Source: Saprospiraceae bacterium (GTDB taxonomy: Bacteria > Bacteroidota > Bacteroidia > Chitinophagales > Saprospiraceae). From it: a stretch of DNA of 38,483 nt. This document shows, one piece after another, positions 4,114 through 38,157 of the stretch (position 1 is its first letter; every line of letters starts with the position of its first letter). A program made the position numbers and the translations under genes. The DNA lies in assembly GCA_029263015.1 (NCBI GenBank), contig JAJCYI010000059.1, forward strand, positions 1-38,483. The letters are read 5' to 3'. The notes beneath the pieces are model-generated. The model was not told the DNA's origin, did not search any database, and worked only from the letters and a program-made list of their open reading frames with translations.

Positions 4114-7100
4114 ATGCCACAAACCCTCACCATACCTTTTCATTCATTCAAATTGCACCTACCAGATGGTGGCTCGATCATCTTTCCGCTAGCGGACGCG
4201 AATGCCCTTCATTTGAAAAAATCCGCTGGGCAATTATCACAAAAGTACCGAGATAAGTTTCAGAAAAAATTACTCGATCTGGGCAAATATGCGCGGGTGC
4301 TGGATGAATTGCAGCACGGCGAATTCATCCAAAAGACTTTTCAAATGGAATTCCCTGCCGCAAAAGATGGAATGAGCTACCCTGCCTTTGAGCTGGAATT
4401 CGATTATTTCTTTCAGGAATTCAACGAAAAATTTTGGGCCGTCATACCTGCCTTGGGACTCGAAACAATGGCCGACAAAGAAGAGGAATTGGAAGAGCGG
4501 TTACGGGAAGTAGTAAAAGTGGATTTTACTTCCAAAAAAAGGTTAAGCCATGTGCAGCTCATTATCAGTGCAATCTGGTTCGATGCCATTTCGATAGAAA
4601 AAACGGAAATGGACCTTACCTTTTATTCCCCTACCGAATTGGTGGATTTGCAAAAAGAACAAAAACGGCAATTGTTGCCCAAGGTCGCTGACAAACTAAT
4701 AATAAAAAATAAAGTAGCTTATGGCAGGGAAGAAGAGTTGACTCATCTCGAAAGGATCGTTGCAAGTAATTTTTCCAAAAACACATTGCTTATTGGTGCT
4801 TCCGGTTCAGGTAAAACAGCACTTGTACGGGAATTGGCACACCGTCGGTTCGTACAAAAAGAACCCAACTACATCTGGGAGACCACCGCCTCGGTGCTGA
4901 TAAAAGAACTGACCATCGAATCGGGCTGGCAAGACAACCTAAGCCTGTTGGTGAACGAACTGACTGCAAACGGTGACATCTTGTTTGTGCGCAACCTGGC
5001 AGAGTTGTTTGAAGTGGGACAATACGAAGGCAATAAAATAAGTATGGCAGAATACATCCAGCCATATATCAGCCGCGGCGAGTTAACGGTCATTACCGAA
5101 TGTACCTCTGAAGAACGGGCGCGGATCGAAGTCCGCAGTCCAAATTACCTTTCGTTTTTCCAAACCATTCAATTGGAAGAGCCCAAGACTGGCCTGGAAG
5201 ATATTATCCGACAAAAAGTAGAAGACTTGGCTGGTGCGAAACAAATAGTTTTTGAGACAGATGCGATTGATGAAGTAATCAGGCTGCACCAACGGTTTTC
5301 GCCCTATTCGGGCATGCCTGGCAAGCCTATTCGTTTCCTAGAAAGCATCCTTTTGGCCAAAGCACCAACAGAACCATCCGGGCCAGAAAACCAAGTAAAG
5401 GTACACCGCCATTCCGTTTTGCAACATTATTGCGACGAATCAGGCCTGCCCATGTTCATGATCGACCCGTCGCTTCCCATGGAAGTTGAAGGAATCAAAT
5501 CCCAATTCAATGGCAATGTTTTTGGGCAAAAAACGGCAGTTGATACCGTGGTCGGTTTATTGGCCGCTGTAAAAACTGCCCTCACCCGAACAGGCAAACC
5601 CATTGCTTCCTTCCTTTTTGTCGGCCCAACAGGTGTCGGAAAAACAGAACTGGCAAAGGTGCTTGCAGATTTTATGTTCGGCAGCCGAGACCGTTTGCTC
5701 CGTTTCGACATGAGTGAATACAGTGATCCATGGATGGTCATGAGGTTGACGGGCCAGGGATACCACAGTGACGGGTTATTGACTTCGGCAGTCCGTCGGG
5801 AGCCCTTTTGTGTATTATTGTTTGATGAAATAGAAAAAGCTGATCCGAGTTTTTTCGATTTGCTTTTGCAAATAATTGGAGAGGGGCGTTTGTCTGACAG
5901 CCAAGGTAAATTGGTCAACTTTTGCAGTGCAATCATCATCATGACTTCCAATATTGGGACTGGCAAATTGCAGAACAACCGCATTGGCTGGAAAAAAGAA
6001 TTGGAGACCCAAGATGTGACCAGTCATTTTATCAGGGAAGTTGAGAAAAATTTCAAACCCGAACTATTCAACAGAATAGATTCTGTAGTTGCATTTGTAC
6101 CGCTTTCCAAAGAAACAGTGAGAAAGGTTGTTGAACGGGAAATTGAAAAATTCAAAAAAAGAGAGGGCATCCGGTTTCGCCGATTGGAAATGGAAATCAC
6201 CGATGAGGTGCTCGGTCACCTTGCCATAAGTGGGTACGACGCCCGATATGGTGCCCGCTACCTTCAACGGGTCATCAAGGAAAAACTCATCGTCCCAATG
6301 GCATACACCTTGAACCAATATGACTACGATGACCAACTTGTATTGAAAGTGGATTTGGAAAACGGCCAAATTGTACTCCACACATCTTCCGACCCAATGG
6401 CATTCGACATGCTCATGGAGCAGTGGGACAAGCTGACCCTGGCCGACCAAACATCTTTCCTCCGCCGTAAAATGATAATAATGCTGGAAGGAGCCCTTTA
6501 TATGCGGATGCAAAGCGAAATTGACATGATGGAGGGGGAAAAAAAGATAGATGAAAAACCATTCTGGAACGACCTTGAAAGGTCAAATCTTTATACCAAC
6601 TTGTTGAATGTCAGGGAAAAAGCAGAACACCTTTATAATAGGATCAAAAAATTGGAAGTTGAAATCGCATTGGTTGCTATGGACCAAGGTTCTTTCAACA
6701 CAAGTTTTGAGGAGCGGATCGAAGAATGGGAGACTGCCTATTTCATTTTGATCGTTGAGGCATTTAGCTTTCTTTATCCGGAGAACAATAAATGTTATCT
6801 TTCTATTTATGGCGTAGACCCTGAAGAGGTGGTCAAATTTTATTTTGATCTGATCGAAAGACAGGGTTTTGAAATTAAAACTGCGCAAGCAATATGGTAC
6901 CGCGAAGGTTTTATGGGTATAGATGACGACAACCCCGTCCCAGATGAGCAGTCAAAAGAACCTGGGACCTTTCTAAAACGTCTAATCGACCGCTCGGACA
7001 TTGCTAGAAAAGTGTATCTTCCTCCATCTTCAAGTGACCGCCTTTATGGCGTTGAGTTTTTGCTTTCAGGGCCAGCTTCCAATCTTTACTTTAATAGTGA

Positions 7101-7371
7101 AAACGGCATTCAACAATGGGAGGCCATTGCAAAAGAACCAATGAACAGTTACCTAATATTGGTTTCCAATAGCTATTCCCCCACCCCACCAAACATCATC
7201 CGGCAGCAATATTACCAAAAACCGAAACCCCGGCGCACCCTCACATCTACTGAACTCAGAGACATTCAAATAGGCATTCAGACACAAATAAAGCCCAAAG
7301 CCAGGGTAAAATATATAGCCGAAATATTGGATGAGATATTCAAAAGGGATATTGAAGATCTTGTCAAGTAA
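4114..7371 (+). CDS. Clp/ClpB-like double AAA+ ATPase with release-factor-like (PCRF) C-terminus
   Basis: 1085 residues, ATG start. Residues 1-200 are not a recognisable Clp N domain. AAA+ D1 (about 205-440) has Walker A GASGSGKT near 228, but the Walker B position reads ILFVRNLAEL where ClpB has ILFIDELHTM, and the arginine-finger position reads LSFF; D1 probably binds but does not hydrolyse ATP. D2 (about 465-760) is intact: GPTGVGKTELAK near 504, LLFDEIEKAD near 568, TSN sensor 1 near 610, NRID near 652 and a GARYLQR sensor 2. The pore loop keeps a Tyr (GYHSDG) but is shorter than in ClpB. After D2, FWNDLERSN near 816 and following helices resemble the RF2 N-terminal coiled coil. NNKCYLSIYGVD (near 891) and YFNSENGIQQWEAI (near 990) resemble the PCRF domain. 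No GGQ domain follows. Likely a remodelling ATPase acting on a ribosome-linked or other partner; the function is inferred. No operon partner is evident. Confidence 0.85.
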   Translation: MPQTLTIPFHSFKLHLPDGGSIIFPLADANALHLKKSAGQLSQKYRDKFQKKLLDLGKYARVLDELQHGEFIQKTFQMEFPAAKDGMSYPAFELEFDYFFQEFNEKFWAVIPALGLETMADKEEELEERLREVVKVDFTSKKRLSHVQLIISAIWFDAISIEKTEMDLTFYSPTELVDLQKEQKRQLLPKVADKLIIKNKVAYGREEELTHLERIVASNFSKNTLLIGASGSGKTALVRELAHRRFVQKEPNYIWETTASVLIKELTIESGWQDNLSLLVNELTANGDILFVRNLAELFEVGQYEGNKISMAEYIQPYISRGELTVITECTSEERARIEVRSPNYLSFFQTIQLEEPKTGLEDIIRQKVEDLAGAKQIVFETDAIDEVIRLHQRFSPYSGMPGKPIRFLESILLAKAPTEPSGPENQVKVHRHSVLQHYCDESGLPMFMIDPSLPMEVEGIKSQFNGNVFGQKTAVDTVVGLLAAVKTALTRTGKPIASFLFVGPTGVGKTELAKVLADFMFGSRDRLLRFDMSEYSDPWMVMRLTGQGYHSDGLLTSAVRREPFCVLLFDEIEKADPSFFDLLLQIIGEGRLSDSQGKLVNFCSAIIIMTSNIGTGKLQNNRIGWKKELETQDVTSHFIREVEKNFKPELFNRIDSVVAFVPLSKETVRKVVEREIEKFKKREGIRFRRLEMEITDEVLGHLAISGYDARYGARYLQRVIKEKLIVPMAYTLNQYDYDDQLVLKVDLENGQIVLHTSSDPMAFDMLMEQWDKLTLADQTSFLRRKMIIMLEGALYMRMQSEIDMMEGEKKIDEKPFWNDLERSNLYTNLLNVREKAEHLYNRIKKLEVEIALVAMDQGSFNTSFEERIEEWETAYFILIVEAFSFLYPENNKCYLSIYGVDPEEVVKFYFDLIERQGFEIKTAQAIWYREGFMGIDDDNPVPDEQSKEPGTFLKRLIDRSDIARKVYLPPSSSDRLYGVEFLLSGPASNLYFNSENGIQQWEAIAKEPMNSYLILVSNSYSPTPPNIIRQQYYQKPKPRRTLTSTELRDIQIGIQTQIKPKARVKYIAEILDEIFKRDIEDLVK

Positions 7372-7923: not shown

Positions 7924-8190
7924 ATGTACATTACTTTCAAAGAGTTAAGAAACATCAAGCACAGTCTGCCCACTGGCAGCGTTGCCCGCATTGCCGACGA
8001 GTTAAACGTTGAACAACAAACCGTCAGGAATTATTTTGGCGCAAAAAAATATGACAAGGGGCAAATTGCGGGCATCGCTGTACATCCTGGGCCAGACGGC
8101 GGATTTGTTCAATTTGAAGATACACGTATTATCGACCTTGCAAAAAAAATAATTACTGAATCGATCGCACACACACCAAGTTCTAACTGA
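7924..8190 (+). CDS. small helix-turn-helix protein, probable DNA-binding regulator
   Basis: 88 residues, ATG start, followed by a strong terminator, so a complete monocistronic gene. Residues about 18-38 (GSVARIADELNVEQQTVRNY) read as a helix-turn-helix: an Ala-x-x-Leu first helix, a turn at Asn-Val and a recognition helix QQTVRNYFG. The C-terminal third (GGFVQFEDTRIIDLAKKIIT) ends in an amphipathic helix that might mediate dimerisation. I do not recognise a named family. It could regulate itself or the neighbouring symporter; that is inference. Base use is like its neighbours. Confidence 0.7.
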   Translation: MYITFKELRNIKHSLPTGSVARIADELNVEQQTVRNYFGAKKYDKGQIAGIAVHPGPDGGFVQFEDTRIIDLAKKIITESIAHTPSSN

Positions 8191-34503: not shown

Positions 34504-37500
34504 TTAATCAATAACTACCTTTTGGGCGACCACGCCATCAGAAGTAGCTATTTGAAGGAAATAAACCCCTGTTGTTAAGTGACTTACGTTCAATTCAGTT
34601 TTACCAAGGGTATTTTCCAAACGGTGCTGGAGTACCATCTGGCCTTGTGCGTTGTACAATGATACGCCTGTCAAACCAAGTCCCCCATCTCTCATTTCGA
34701 CCGTCAACAAGTCAGTTGTTGGATTGGGGTAAACGAGGATGTCTTGGTTTTCCAAAACACCTTCTACTGCATTCGGTCCTGCATTTTCGTCAATGACGAT
34801 ATTAAAAACAGGCAACCCGAAAAATCCACCGTTGCCATCTTCCACTTGGAAAGTAAAGCTGTCATCCAAGGCTGCGGCATCGGTGTTTGTATAGGTCAAT
34901 TGGCTGGCAAAAATATCGAACATGGTAAAATTATCACCTGCGCCAAGTTGTGTTCCACTCAAGGAAAGGAATCCGTTTCCAGTATTTTGGATAATGGTGA
35001 AAACCAATTCCCCAGGGCCATTGTCATCATCTTCTACGACTAAGTGTTCTTGTAAAATATTGTAAGTCTGGCTTGGGGGAAGTGCCAAGGTTTCATTGGT
35101 GACCAGATATGGATCGAGGGCGGCAAAAGCACCACAAATCTCCAATTCCCAACCATCCAGAGTGCCGCCGGCTCCAAAATTGGTAACTACCCTCACCTCC
35201 AATTCCCAATCACCAGCAGAATCTTCCCCATTAAATGCAGAAAGTGATTCATCGGGCTTGTAATTTGCTCCCCCGCCCGCCGGACATGGAATATCGGTCA
35301 GCGGAGATTCATCATCGAAGCCAAGATGAAAAGCTGATCCACTACTGCATGGTTGTTGTTTCATCAAAGAAACAGCCGTACCGGTTGGACTTGTCAGTTT
35401 AAACACGATGTCACCAAAAGCATTGTACTGACCATTGACATCCAATACGTTGACATCGCTGATGATGCCTCCAGTTGGGACATTGATCACTGATTCTTCA
35501 GTAGAACCATTGCTGGAAGGGAGGTTGACTTGATCCGTAGTTATCAAAGAATTACAATCTTGGGAGACCGTTTTGAATGCCCCAGCGTTACCGTACTCAC
35601 CTGGACCGCATTCGTTCGTCACCCGTACCCGCCAGTAGTAAACTGTATTTTCTTCCAGCACTGTGTTGCCAGCATAGCTCGGCACATCAAGTCCTGTTAC
35701 TTCATCAATTACGTTGGCAAAATCAGGATCGGTCGCAATCTGTACATCATAGATCAAACCATTTGGCAGATCGGTCCACTCGTAATTTGGCAAAGTGCTG
35801 TTGCCGGAGCCACCTGGAGAGGTCAATGTGAGTGCTGAGAAATCATTGTAAACAACATTTAGGTCAACCGTCCTTTCAGCATTCGGAACTCCATTGGCTT
35901 CCGCTGTGATGGTGATGGTGAAATCCCCATCATCGGTCACGTTGGCCAAGTCAATAGTCATCGTGGTTGACTCCCCTGGGTTAACTGGGTTGGAGCCAAA
36001 CGAAGCCATCGCTCCTGCTGGAAGTCCAGCTACTGAGTAAGTTATTGGCTCGGTGAACCCTAATAAAGCTGTGGTTTCCAAACTAATATCAAAAGTTTCA
36101 GGTGTACACGCCGTCCCCATTTCAGGGGAAGATAAAAGCGCATATCCTGGAGAAGTTGCATCAATGATCGAGAAATTGGCATTTGATATATCAAAGAAAA
36201 TATTGTCTGCGGCTCTTACTTTTACACGTGCGCCGTCGGTAAGCTCATTGGGGACTACAATATGTGTACTCCCATCGTTGTTTGTGCCAGCCAGCAAGGT
36301 AACCGGATAAGTAAAACCACCATCGGTTGAAAGTAAAACATCGACCGATTGGCAATTGACTTGAGTGCCATCTGTATTTGCCACATCCCATGTCACTTCC
36401 ACGTATTGGCCAACCTCCCAAATTTCTGTTCCAGCATTTGGGGCAGTTACCAGAAACGGCCCTGCCAATTCAGTAGAAGAAAATTCTATTTCATCAAAAT
36501 CATAGCCACCAGCATTATCGTGGTTGTCCCGAGTTATAAATCGGAAAGTAATTGGCCTGGTGGTAGTTGGCAATACTTCTGTCGTTTGGCTGGTGTTATT
36601 GACAATGGTTTCTATTTTAGGAAAAACCCTTGTTGGAGAATCACCTGGGATATTGGACCGGAACAAAGGTGCCGTGCCCATTGGTGAGCCAAGTACACTT
36701 TGGGTACCCAAGTCGTATTGTTCCCAAACATAGGTCAAGTTGTTGTCGCCGTCCATATCAGTAGCCAGGCCTGTCATTTCAAAAGGCGTACTGATCGGAA
36801 TTTTGAAACCGGCAGCATATGGAATAATGGATTCCGGTGTATTATTTCCTTCCGAACTGATCACCGCGCACGACCCACCTGAATTAGGGTCTCGACTGAA
36901 TGCCCTCATGCGCTCCAGTGAATTGATGTGGTAATAAGGGTCGCCATGATCATTTAGCCATTGCGTATTGCAGGTGCTCGCACCAGAATAAGACATTATA
37001 GTGCTGCCAGCACCAACCTCATAGCCGGTAGGAGGGCTTTCGTTAATGCCATCGCAAGAATTGAAAGTGTGCAAGGCATTGTATTGGTGGCCCATTTCAT
37101 GCGCCACGATCAAGTAAAACAATGGGCCAGTGAAAGCACCAAAAGTTGATGAAACTCCTCTTGCTTTACTCGAACTACAAACGGAGCCAGTCTGTGCCAA
37201 GCCTCCTGCATTCGTACCGAAAACATGGCCAATGTCATAATTGTCAATACCGATAGTATTGTTTAAAACAGGTGGGTTCTCATTGATCATTTCATCAGTT
37301 TGGCCATTGGTGTATGGATCAGAGCCATTTGAGCCAAAATGGAAGACGTCGGAAGTATTACCGACAAGTTCTAAATGAACCGCTACATCCCGTTCCAATA
37401 CAAAATTTACATTGTTTATTACCGTGGAAACTGATGAAAGAACACTTCCCACGGTGTTCCCGTGCGACGAGGAATACTCAACTGTGGTGGCAATTGCGAC

Positions 37501-38157
37501 CCTGTAAGTATATAAATCGACTACTGCAGCATTGCGATTGGATGATGTTAATTCTGGCTCAGTAGGCACATTTGAAAAATCAATGGGTAGGTCAGTATAG
37601 TTCTCGCCATGTGTGCCACAAATAAAATTTGGATTTGGTGCACCTTCGAGGTCAATATCTTCTTGATAAAAACTATGGTAAAATTCCGTTTGTCCTTCCG
37701 TTGCAGGCCAGATAAAAGCTGTTCCCATTGGAGCGGAAATCATTGCATGGAAACCATTGAGGTTGTAATCAAATTTTATACGTGTACCTGGATGTTGCAG
37801 ACTTGTTCCAGTAAAAGTTTTTATCATTGGGAATTGCGCTGCGAGGACTGGCGCAATCACCGGAGATTCCCATACGCCGAATTGTTCGGTGTTGCCATCT
37901 GGCAATGGCAGTTCCAACACCAACTGTTGGTTACGGGCATCCTCAGTTCCTATCATCGGTGCTTCCCGCAGATAATTAATAAGTGCTGGCAAGTCTAACG
38001 TAATCGTCCTATACGCAGAAATATATTGTGGAGACGATGTACTTTGAGGCAATACTGCCACCCCAGGTTCTACCTCCTGCCAGAGGTTTGAAGGTGATTG
38101 TGCCATCAAACAAATAGCGGCAAATAAGATGGTGCAAGTCGTGAAAATTTTCTTCAT
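34504..38157 (-). CDS. secreted metzincin (reprolysin-like) metalloprotease with P-domain, cadherin-like and T9SS sorting domains
   Basis: 1217 residues, ATG at 38157. A signal peptide (about 1-20) and a propeptide-like region lead to the catalytic domain (about 205-410): HEMGHQYNALH near 353 is the HExxHxxxxxH zinc site and IMSYSG near 388 the Met-turn, both diagnostic of metzincins. Next come beta-sandwich modules (a YVEVTWDVANTDGT region and a Fn3-like YYWRVRVTNECGPG). At about 866-1009 lies a proprotein-convertase P-domain (GDIVFKLTSPTGTAVSLM, DGWELEICG). A cadherin-like repeat follows (about 1016-1122: QLTYTNTDAA, FTFQVEDGNGG). The type A T9SS sorting domain (ILVYPNPTTDLLTVEM to VVID) ends the protein. 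It is probably exported through T9SS and degrades extracellular protein or matures other proteins. Own promoter candidate at 38239. Confidence 0.92.
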   Translation of the reverse strand: MKKIFTTCTILFAAICLMAQSPSNLWQEVEPGVAVLPQSTSSPQYISAYRTITLDLPALINYLREAPMIGTEDARNQQLVLELPLPDGNTEQFGVWESPVIAPVLAAQFPMIKTFTGTSLQHPGTRIKFDYNLNGFHAMISAPMGTAFIWPATEGQTEFYHSFYQEDIDLEGAPNPNFICGTHGENYTDLPIDFSNVPTEPELTSSNRNAAVVDLYTYRVAIATTVEYSSSHGNTVGSVLSSVSTVINNVNFVLERDVAVHLELVGNTSDVFHFGSNGSDPYTNGQTDEMINENPPVLNNTIGIDNYDIGHVFGTNAGGLAQTGSVCSSSKARGVSSTFGAFTGPLFYLIVAHEMGHQYNALHTFNSCDGINESPPTGYEVGAGSTIMSYSGASTCNTQWLNDHGDPYYHINSLERMRAFSRDPNSGGSCAVISSEGNNTPESIIPYAAGFKIPISTPFEMTGLATDMDGDNNLTYVWEQYDLGTQSVLGSPMGTAPLFRSNIPGDSPTRVFPKIETIVNNTSQTTEVLPTTTRPITFRFITRDNHDNAGGYDFDEIEFSSTELAGPFLVTAPNAGTEIWEVGQYVEVTWDVANTDGTQVNCQSVDVLLSTDGGFTYPVTLLAGTNNDGSTHIVVPNELTDGARVKVRAADNIFFDISNANFSIIDATSPGYALLSSPEMGTACTPETFDISLETTALLGFTEPITYSVAGLPAGAMASFGSNPVNPGESTTMTIDLANVTDDGDFTITITAEANGVPNAERTVDLNVVYNDFSALTLTSPGGSGNSTLPNYEWTDLPNGLIYDVQIATDPDFANVIDEVTGLDVPSYAGNTVLEENTVYYWRVRVTNECGPGEYGNAGAFKTVSQDCNSLITTDQVNLPSSNGSTEESVINVPTGGIISDVNVLDVNGQYNAFGDIVFKLTSPTGTAVSLMKQQPCSSGSAFHLGFDDESPLTDIPCPAGGGANYKPDESLSAFNGEDSAGDWELEVRVVTNFGAGGTLDGWELEICGAFAALDPYLVTNETLALPPSQTYNILQEHLVVEDDDNGPGELVFTIIQNTGNGFLSLSGTQLGAGDNFTMFDIFASQLTYTNTDAAALDDSFTFQVEDGNGGFFGLPVFNIVIDENAGPNAVEGVLENQDILVYPNPTTDLLTVEMRDGGLGLTGVSLYNAQGQMVLQHRLENTLGKTELNVSHLTTGVYFLQIATSDGVVAQKVVID

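Follow-up and report, generated by a model that had tools for sequence, protein, structure and literature searches.

The window, that is the whole stretch of 38,483 nucleotides analysed here, covers positions 1 to 38,483 of contig JAJCYI010000059.1 from a Saprospiraceae bacterium (assembly GCA_029263015.1) and contains a large gene, hereafter gene A, whose open reading frame (ORF) was confirmed to be present (Table 1). In an earlier note made from the letters alone, its product had been taken for a Clp-like AAA+ ATPase fused to a release-factor-2-like module without a GGQ domain, a claim which profile, intermediate-sequence and fold evidence now supports. It is strongly supported that A is a Clp-derived ATPase ending in a release factor (RF) body, consisting of the RF N-terminal helices, the PCRF domain and the RF C-terminal segment, from which the GGQ domain is gone. 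Ordinary RF1 and RF2 genes are also encoded in the same genome. Furthermore, A is one of three paralogues; B likewise possesses an RF body lacking GGQ, and C, judged by its length, has no RF body. Neither this paralogy nor the match of residues ~1025–1085 to the RF C-terminal segment had been part of the earlier note.

According to Pfam and NCBIfam, two AAA modules (D1 and D2) and a ClpB_D2-small domain lie within residues ~200–740 of A. Among the 25 best-scoring of the 47 Pfam families for this protein the ClpN repeat domain does not appear. The scores of A with the NCBIfam models of ClpA (310.5 bits) and ClpB (314.5 bits) remain below the curated cut-offs of 993.15 and 1232.1.

Table 1 Parts of gene A and further genes of the window (coordinates refer to the window; domain boundaries marked ~ are approximate)
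Feature	Position	Strand	Residues or length	Remarks
Gene A, Clp/Hsp100-like ATPase with two AAA+ modules and, at its C-terminus, a GGQ-less body like that of release factors	4114..7371	+	1085 amino acids	
Gene A, N-terminal domain	4114..4710	+	~1–199	
Gene A, D1 AAA module	4717..5403	+	~202–430	Walker A 228–235 present
Gene A, D2 AAA module and D2-small	5581..6318	+	~490–735	Walker A 504–511, Walker B intact
Gene A, C-terminal extension	6346..7368	+	745–1085	predicted class-I release-factor fold without GGQ domain; predicted local distance difference test (pLDDT) 91.2
Gene A, helices like the RF2 N-terminal domain	6511..6765	+	~800–884	FW at 817–818
Gene A, PCRF-like core	6778..7143	+	~889–1010	G900, Y910, E996, G998 common to release factors
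Gene A, tail like the RF C-terminal segment	7186..7368	+	~1025–1085	P1025, D1050; after the PCRF part, no GGQ domain in between
Small ORF downstream of A	7924–8190	+	88 amino acids	same strand as A
Large reprolysin-like metallopeptidase	34504–38157	−		P-domain, cadherin-like repeat, secretion-tail domain

Release-factor likeness of the C-terminal extension

Relatives were searched in contigs of one genome per species, the best 80 of 478 confirmed stretches being kept, and in the loci fetched in this way the C-terminal extension of A (the A tail) matched 46 ORFs by BLAST (E ≤ 1e-2). A set of 29 RF1/RF2 sequences from the relatives was used for comparison, and 37 families served as controls. In hhalign the 46 A tails reached 85.6% against the RF set (E 5.6e-6, for that one comparison) and 78.0% against RF2 alone; the control families gave at most 1.8% and reversed profiles 1.4%. 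When a profile of 44 A tails was run against 177,635 distinct PDB sequences, RF2 took the first two places (E 0.06 and 0.07), and with a profile of 34 tails including five distant ones RF2 accounted for the six best matches (E 0.0015 to 0.042). In a low-threshold alignment 14 of the 19 A columns that are conserved to at least 85% land on RF columns, nine of them with the same residue; where the RF column is conserved to at least 97%, the residue is identical in six out of six such A columns. The four strings on which the earlier note had built its alignment occur in the order it gave (residues 817–825, 894–902, 978–990 and 994–1002): FW.D aligns with the N-terminal region of RF2, CYLSIYGVD with the start of PCRF and the last strings with a PCRF strand and E.GVHR.

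Intermediate sequences link the two families as well. When 825 ORFs from the fetched loci were screened with a hidden Markov model (HMM) of RF, the protein L050 stood out (E 0.00034), with L056 and L048 as weak matches. Best hit and A-tail HMM alike (E 9.6e-12 for L050 and 1e-6 for L048) assign L050 and L048 to the A type; the matching stretch of L056 (E 0.036) lies outside any such tail and was taken as chance. The tail of L050 scores 24.8 bits with Pfam PCRF, over the cut-off of 24 (E 2.2e-5), and that of L048 23.1 bits, under it, values which carry a selection because both proteins, two of 63 sorted as A, had been chosen for matching RF. L050 alone retrieved 12 PDB sequences up to E 10, every one of them RF2, and after addition of L050 and L048 to the A profile RF2 made up the 21 best of 26 PDB matches (E from 1.4e-4). 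The HMM comparison with PCRF and RF2 suggested in the earlier note was positive for the family profile and for L050, negative for the window protein alone in Pfam. PCRF membership is found by fold and by family profile, and the Pfam cut-off is passed by L050 only, not by the window protein.

A structure prediction with subsequent fold comparison, likewise proposed earlier, agrees with this relation. The AlphaFold model of residues 745–1085, calculated with 44 sequences, has a pLDDT of 91.2 and a predicted template modelling score of 0.85. Among 350,542 PDB chains compared by Foldseek, the entry titles of ranks 1–41 name release factors, alone or in complex with the ribosome (best E 4.7e-7), a structure of PrfH standing at rank 41. 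An RF fold of the A tail is therefore strongly supported as a prediction. For the modelled B tail of locus L049, ranks 1–5 are RF1/RF2 entries by title (E 2.0e-6 to 8.9e-5) and rank 6 has an E of 0.18.

The absence of the GGQ domain, already claimed in the earlier note, was confirmed by profile comparison. Removal of the 96 residues holding this domain from the RF alignment raises the hhalign value from 85.6 to 92.6% for A and from 49.7 to 92.8% for B (25 tails). As the cut is slid along the alignment in steps of 10, the maximum for both A and B lies at the GGQ cut (start 201), which argues that the GGQ domain is the part missing from their tails. The other starts from 180 on give 85.3–89.7% with A; with B, starts 180–210 give 85.1–92.7% and those beyond 43.3–56.6%. 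With a five-tail B profile the peak comes a little before that, 94.3% at start 180 as compared with 93.1% at 201. If the cut passes through PCRF (starts 70–170), the values drop to 1.5–32.4% for A, 20.9–29.5% for B and 6.5–55.0% for the five-tail B profile. The 37 control families do not exceed 4.6% against RF without GGQ. The alignment of B to GGQ-less RF also takes in the RF C-terminal segment, where B has DLRTG. As a plain string, GGQ is present in three of 46 A tails, located at the PCRF start or the E.G position, and in none of 25 B tails. SPF, the stop-codon motif of RF2, was found in one A tail (not that of the window) out of 46, in 0 of 25 B tails and in 10 of the 29 RF1/RF2 sequences.

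Several observations weigh against this likeness. Against RF1 alone the A tails give just 3.2%. Single-sequence searches of the last ~320 residues of window A in Pfam, NCBIfam and PDB found no release factor, nor did Pfam scans of 44 A and 11 B tails, taken singly, find PCRF. The five distant A tails singly reach 0.3–12.0% against RF, yet 94.5–98.0% against the A profile. Two A tails of Thermoguttaceae (L070 and L074) match neither the RF nor the A profile, despite their adjacent A-B-C sets. Template modelling scores to whole RF chains are low by query length, 0.20–0.39 for A and 0.20–0.25 for B; for A this may be ascribed to the domain loss together with a changed arrangement of the domains. 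The B model, based on eight sequences, is of middling confidence (pLDDT 70.7). A B-only profile retrieved no RF among 17 PDB matches; a smaller B profile placed RF1 third (E 0.96), and the value of B against full RF fell from 71.8 to 49.7% as more B sequences were added.

It might be argued that a coiled coil followed by an alpha/beta domain resembles RF2 by chance. In favour of this, the relation is missed by the single-sequence Pfam scans, the PDB profile alignments of A fall mostly in helices and the start of PCRF, and the N-terminal half of A alone gives 2.0–20.2% against the RF sets, near the control best of 3.7%. However, the PCRF half alone reaches 68.4% with GGQ-less RF and 32.7% with full RF, where the controls stay at or below 0.6%, and 200 block-shuffled RF profiles gave at best 19.2% with A and 37.1% with B (at least 20% with B in two of the 200), as against the real 92.6 and 92.8%. 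With the Foldseek search returning release factors for A and B tails alike, chance is already contradicted and hardly deserves credence. It is in family profiles, intermediate sequences or structure that the relation of A to RF becomes visible.

The paralogues A, B and C

In a tree of 49 hand-picked D2 domains (A 14, B 13, C 15 and ordinary Clp 7; midpoint root) each group occupies one side of a branch, with supports of 99/94 for A, 91/85 for B, 100/95 for C and 100/100 for Clp, and A and B stand together at 92/82. The same bacterial groups, from several phyla, recur inside the A, B and C groups. As A and B have the RF body and C lacks it, a single fusion before the split of A and B would be the simplest account under this midpoint root. 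The tails of A and B are alike over most of their length (88.3%, 284 columns). The N domains of A are weakly like those of B (22.6% in hhalign) and C (31.6%), and B against C gives 2.0%.

A genes were found mainly in Saprospiraceae-type Bacteroidota, and besides in Gammaproteobacteria such as Hahella. At the loci of Hahella (L039), L049 and L053, A heads a run of three related genes lying side by side in the order A, B, C. Adjacent A-B-C sets exist also in Sericytochromatia (L043), Acidobacteriota (L046/L052 and L054), Verrucomicrobiota (L057) and Thermoguttaceae (L070/L074), and in a further locus of Acidobacteriota (L062) other ORFs lie in between. In the genome of the window, B and C are situated on contigs other than that of A.

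Among 60 related genomes A is present in 21, B in 22 and C in 20, counts which, like all co-occurrence counts given here, depend on the E-value cut-offs. Of the 48 near-complete relatives (at least 90% complete, at most 5% contaminated) 18 have A, B and C, 30 have none and not one is mixed, although these relatives are not independent. A wider set of 120 genomes of the family contains 48 with A; three matches at E ≤ 1e-66 were obtained in 45 of these and two matches in the remaining three. Among 392 genomes sampled from the phylum only the genome of the window itself has A at E ≤ 1e-100. Inheritance of A, B and C together as a triad is strongly supported.

Some further features of these loci may be mentioned. 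The B protein of L062 (L062:7526-10873) shows up as two ORFs of 844 and 262 amino acids, both matching the B-tail HMM, the second of which holds the RF-like end. In three relatives (L123–L128; G009, G004, G001) B and C are ~14–17 kb apart on one contig with, judging by eye, other genes between them. In Saprospira, ~0.9 kb separate the B gene (L060:7326-10643) from a gene for an ordinary release factor (L060:11533-12462), which is encoded on the opposite strand. Genomes with A seem to be larger, ~3.4–11.3 Mb in 48 genomes versus 2.8–5.4 Mb in the 20 listed of 70 without a match.

ATPase modules and pore loops

The D1 module of window A has Walker B replaced by LFVRNL (290–295) and has lost the pore-loop tyrosine. 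The Walker B pair DE of D1 occurs in none of 47 A proteins, 34 of them having RN and two a gap; 19 of 25 B proteins have DN, and 20 of 25 lack the standard D1 Walker A pattern as well, and the pair reads xD in five C proteins. D2 keeps both Walker motifs intact in the 47 A, 25 B and five C proteins.

The D2 pore loop GYVG is absent from all 95 sequences examined, namely 52 of the 63 proteins classed as A, 30 B proteins (21 from relatives and nine of 18 from the loci) and 13 C proteins (out of 34, most of the others being different Clp proteins that sorting by best hit had placed there). Of 10 Clp controls six were readable, and five of these have the loop. The D1 pore tyrosine was found in 13 of 13 C, six of 30 B and 0 of 52 A (two gapped). 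The absence of GYVG argues against ordinary threading by D2. The term unfoldase, used in the earlier note, is weakened by this loss together with the degenerate D1 Walker B, and as a label for A it appears doubtful.

The same data bear on the view that A is an ordinary Clp unfoldase, or a partner of ClpP, with an odd adaptor tail. The intact D2 Walker motifs would fit, as would a hydrophobic-Gly-aromatic triplet, recognised by pattern only, in 22 of 25 B, nine of 10 C and 23 of 47 A (IGW in 19 of these), at a position which we presume to be equivalent to the ClpP loop of ClpA and ClpC. However, given the lack of the D2 pore loop throughout, the absence of the D1 pore tyrosine in A and most B and scores far under the NCBIfam cut-offs for ClpA and ClpB, such an unfoldase is very improbable.

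Gene neighbourhood and possible role

A conserved gene neighbourhood, whose survey had been proposed in the earlier note, was sought among the homologues and none was found. The inspected neighbours are ordinary genes, and PADLOC, applied to six proteins, gave no specific defence-system match, only matches on AAA modules; the RNA-conflict role suggested earlier is therefore unsupported. A role in translation quality control or rescue would fit an RF-like module, and the earlier reading as a whole is partly supported. The small ORF downstream of A belongs to a cluster with members in seven of 47 sources compared, just downstream of A in those seen; it looks helix-turn-helix-like by eye and has no Pfam match.

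For the triad as a whole we lean, with modest confidence, towards a heteromeric AAA+ machine that would dock on the ribosome by RF-like arms without peptide release. A, B and C would assemble as a two-tier ring, the D2 tier hydrolysing ATP and the D1 tier mainly binding nucleotide. The arms of A and B would dock at the ribosomal factor/A-site region with no normal stop codon read and no peptide released, and ATP-driven movement would remodel, clear or hold an idle or stalled ribosome, the machine acting more as a switch or clamp than as a peptide-threading unfoldase. This reading is suggested by the RF fold of the tails, the GGQ excision scan, the co-inheritance of the triad, the intact D2 beside a degenerate D1 and the missing D2 pore loop, as well as by the precedents of PrfB3 and Balon, which lack GGQ and bind RNA or the A site. 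On the other side, the contacts of the decoding site may be gone given the near absence of SPF, the residues common to A and RF may be fold-core residues only, complex formation is inferred from co-inheritance, and no translation gene was noticed as a constant neighbour of A.

The RF body might instead be kept only as a scaffold, for assembly of the A-B-C ring or for a protein partner, with no ribosome contact and with the ATPase remodelling another complex. Near absence of SPF, loss of the GGQ domain, inspected neighbours that are not translation genes and the lack of an RF body in C would all agree with this; yet the body is kept in two paralogues over several phyla, in A including the N-terminal helices, and a mere scaffold might drift further. 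We regard the scaffold as possible but rather unlikely.

Among known proteins, RF2 (PrfB) has the same N-terminal helices with FW.D, PCRF domain and C-terminal segment in the same order as the A tail, which differs in the missing GGQ domain, in the near absence of SPF and in being fused to a double AAA+ ATPase instead of free-standing. The Clp/Hsp100 proteins ClpA, ClpB and ClpC share with A the two AAA modules, the D2 Walker A and B motifs and the D2-small domain; they differ in that A, B and C form separate tree groups without the D2 pore loop, with a degenerate D1 Walker B and, in A and B, with an RF-like tail. PrfB3 of land-plant plastids is free-standing and has no known ATPase, Balon is not known to possess an AAA+ module, and PrfH is paired with an RNA ligase instead of an ATPase like A. 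PrfB3 is related to RF2, has lost SPF and GGQ like A, and protects petB 3' ends (PMC5897788). Binding of mRNA or another RNA off the ribosome after this example, the ATPase remodelling a ribonucleoprotein, is improbable for A, no RNA partner or locus link having been seen. The hibernation factor Balon is a GGQ-less release-factor homologue occupying the A site, related to aeRF1, not to RF1/RF2, and found with EF-Tu (PMC10901736). PrfH, encoded with RtcB2 in an operon of two genes, is an atypical bacterial relative of the class-I RFs.

In the main text of a survey of release-factor evolution (PMC6514570) neither Clp nor PCRF occurs, and PMC7159879 does not contain the term release factor. No description of the A/B/C arrangement was found in open PMC text, subscription papers and preprints lying outside this search. 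That an undescribed three-part machine exists, in which class-I release factors without catalytic function would serve two subunits as docking arms, is a proposition we hold evenly balanced; it would be an ATP-powered, non-hydrolytic mimic inspecting or clearing the factor/A-site region, kept as a unit across distant phyla. If true, a large bacterial ATPase would reach the ribosome via a release-factor body emptied of its catalytic head, which would open another way of ribosome rescue, hibernation or surveillance, new to bacteria, and add to Hsp100 a new lineage lacking the D2 gripping loop. The named strains among the relatives (Hahella, Phaeodactylibacter and Acanthopleuribacter) could make such a machine testable.

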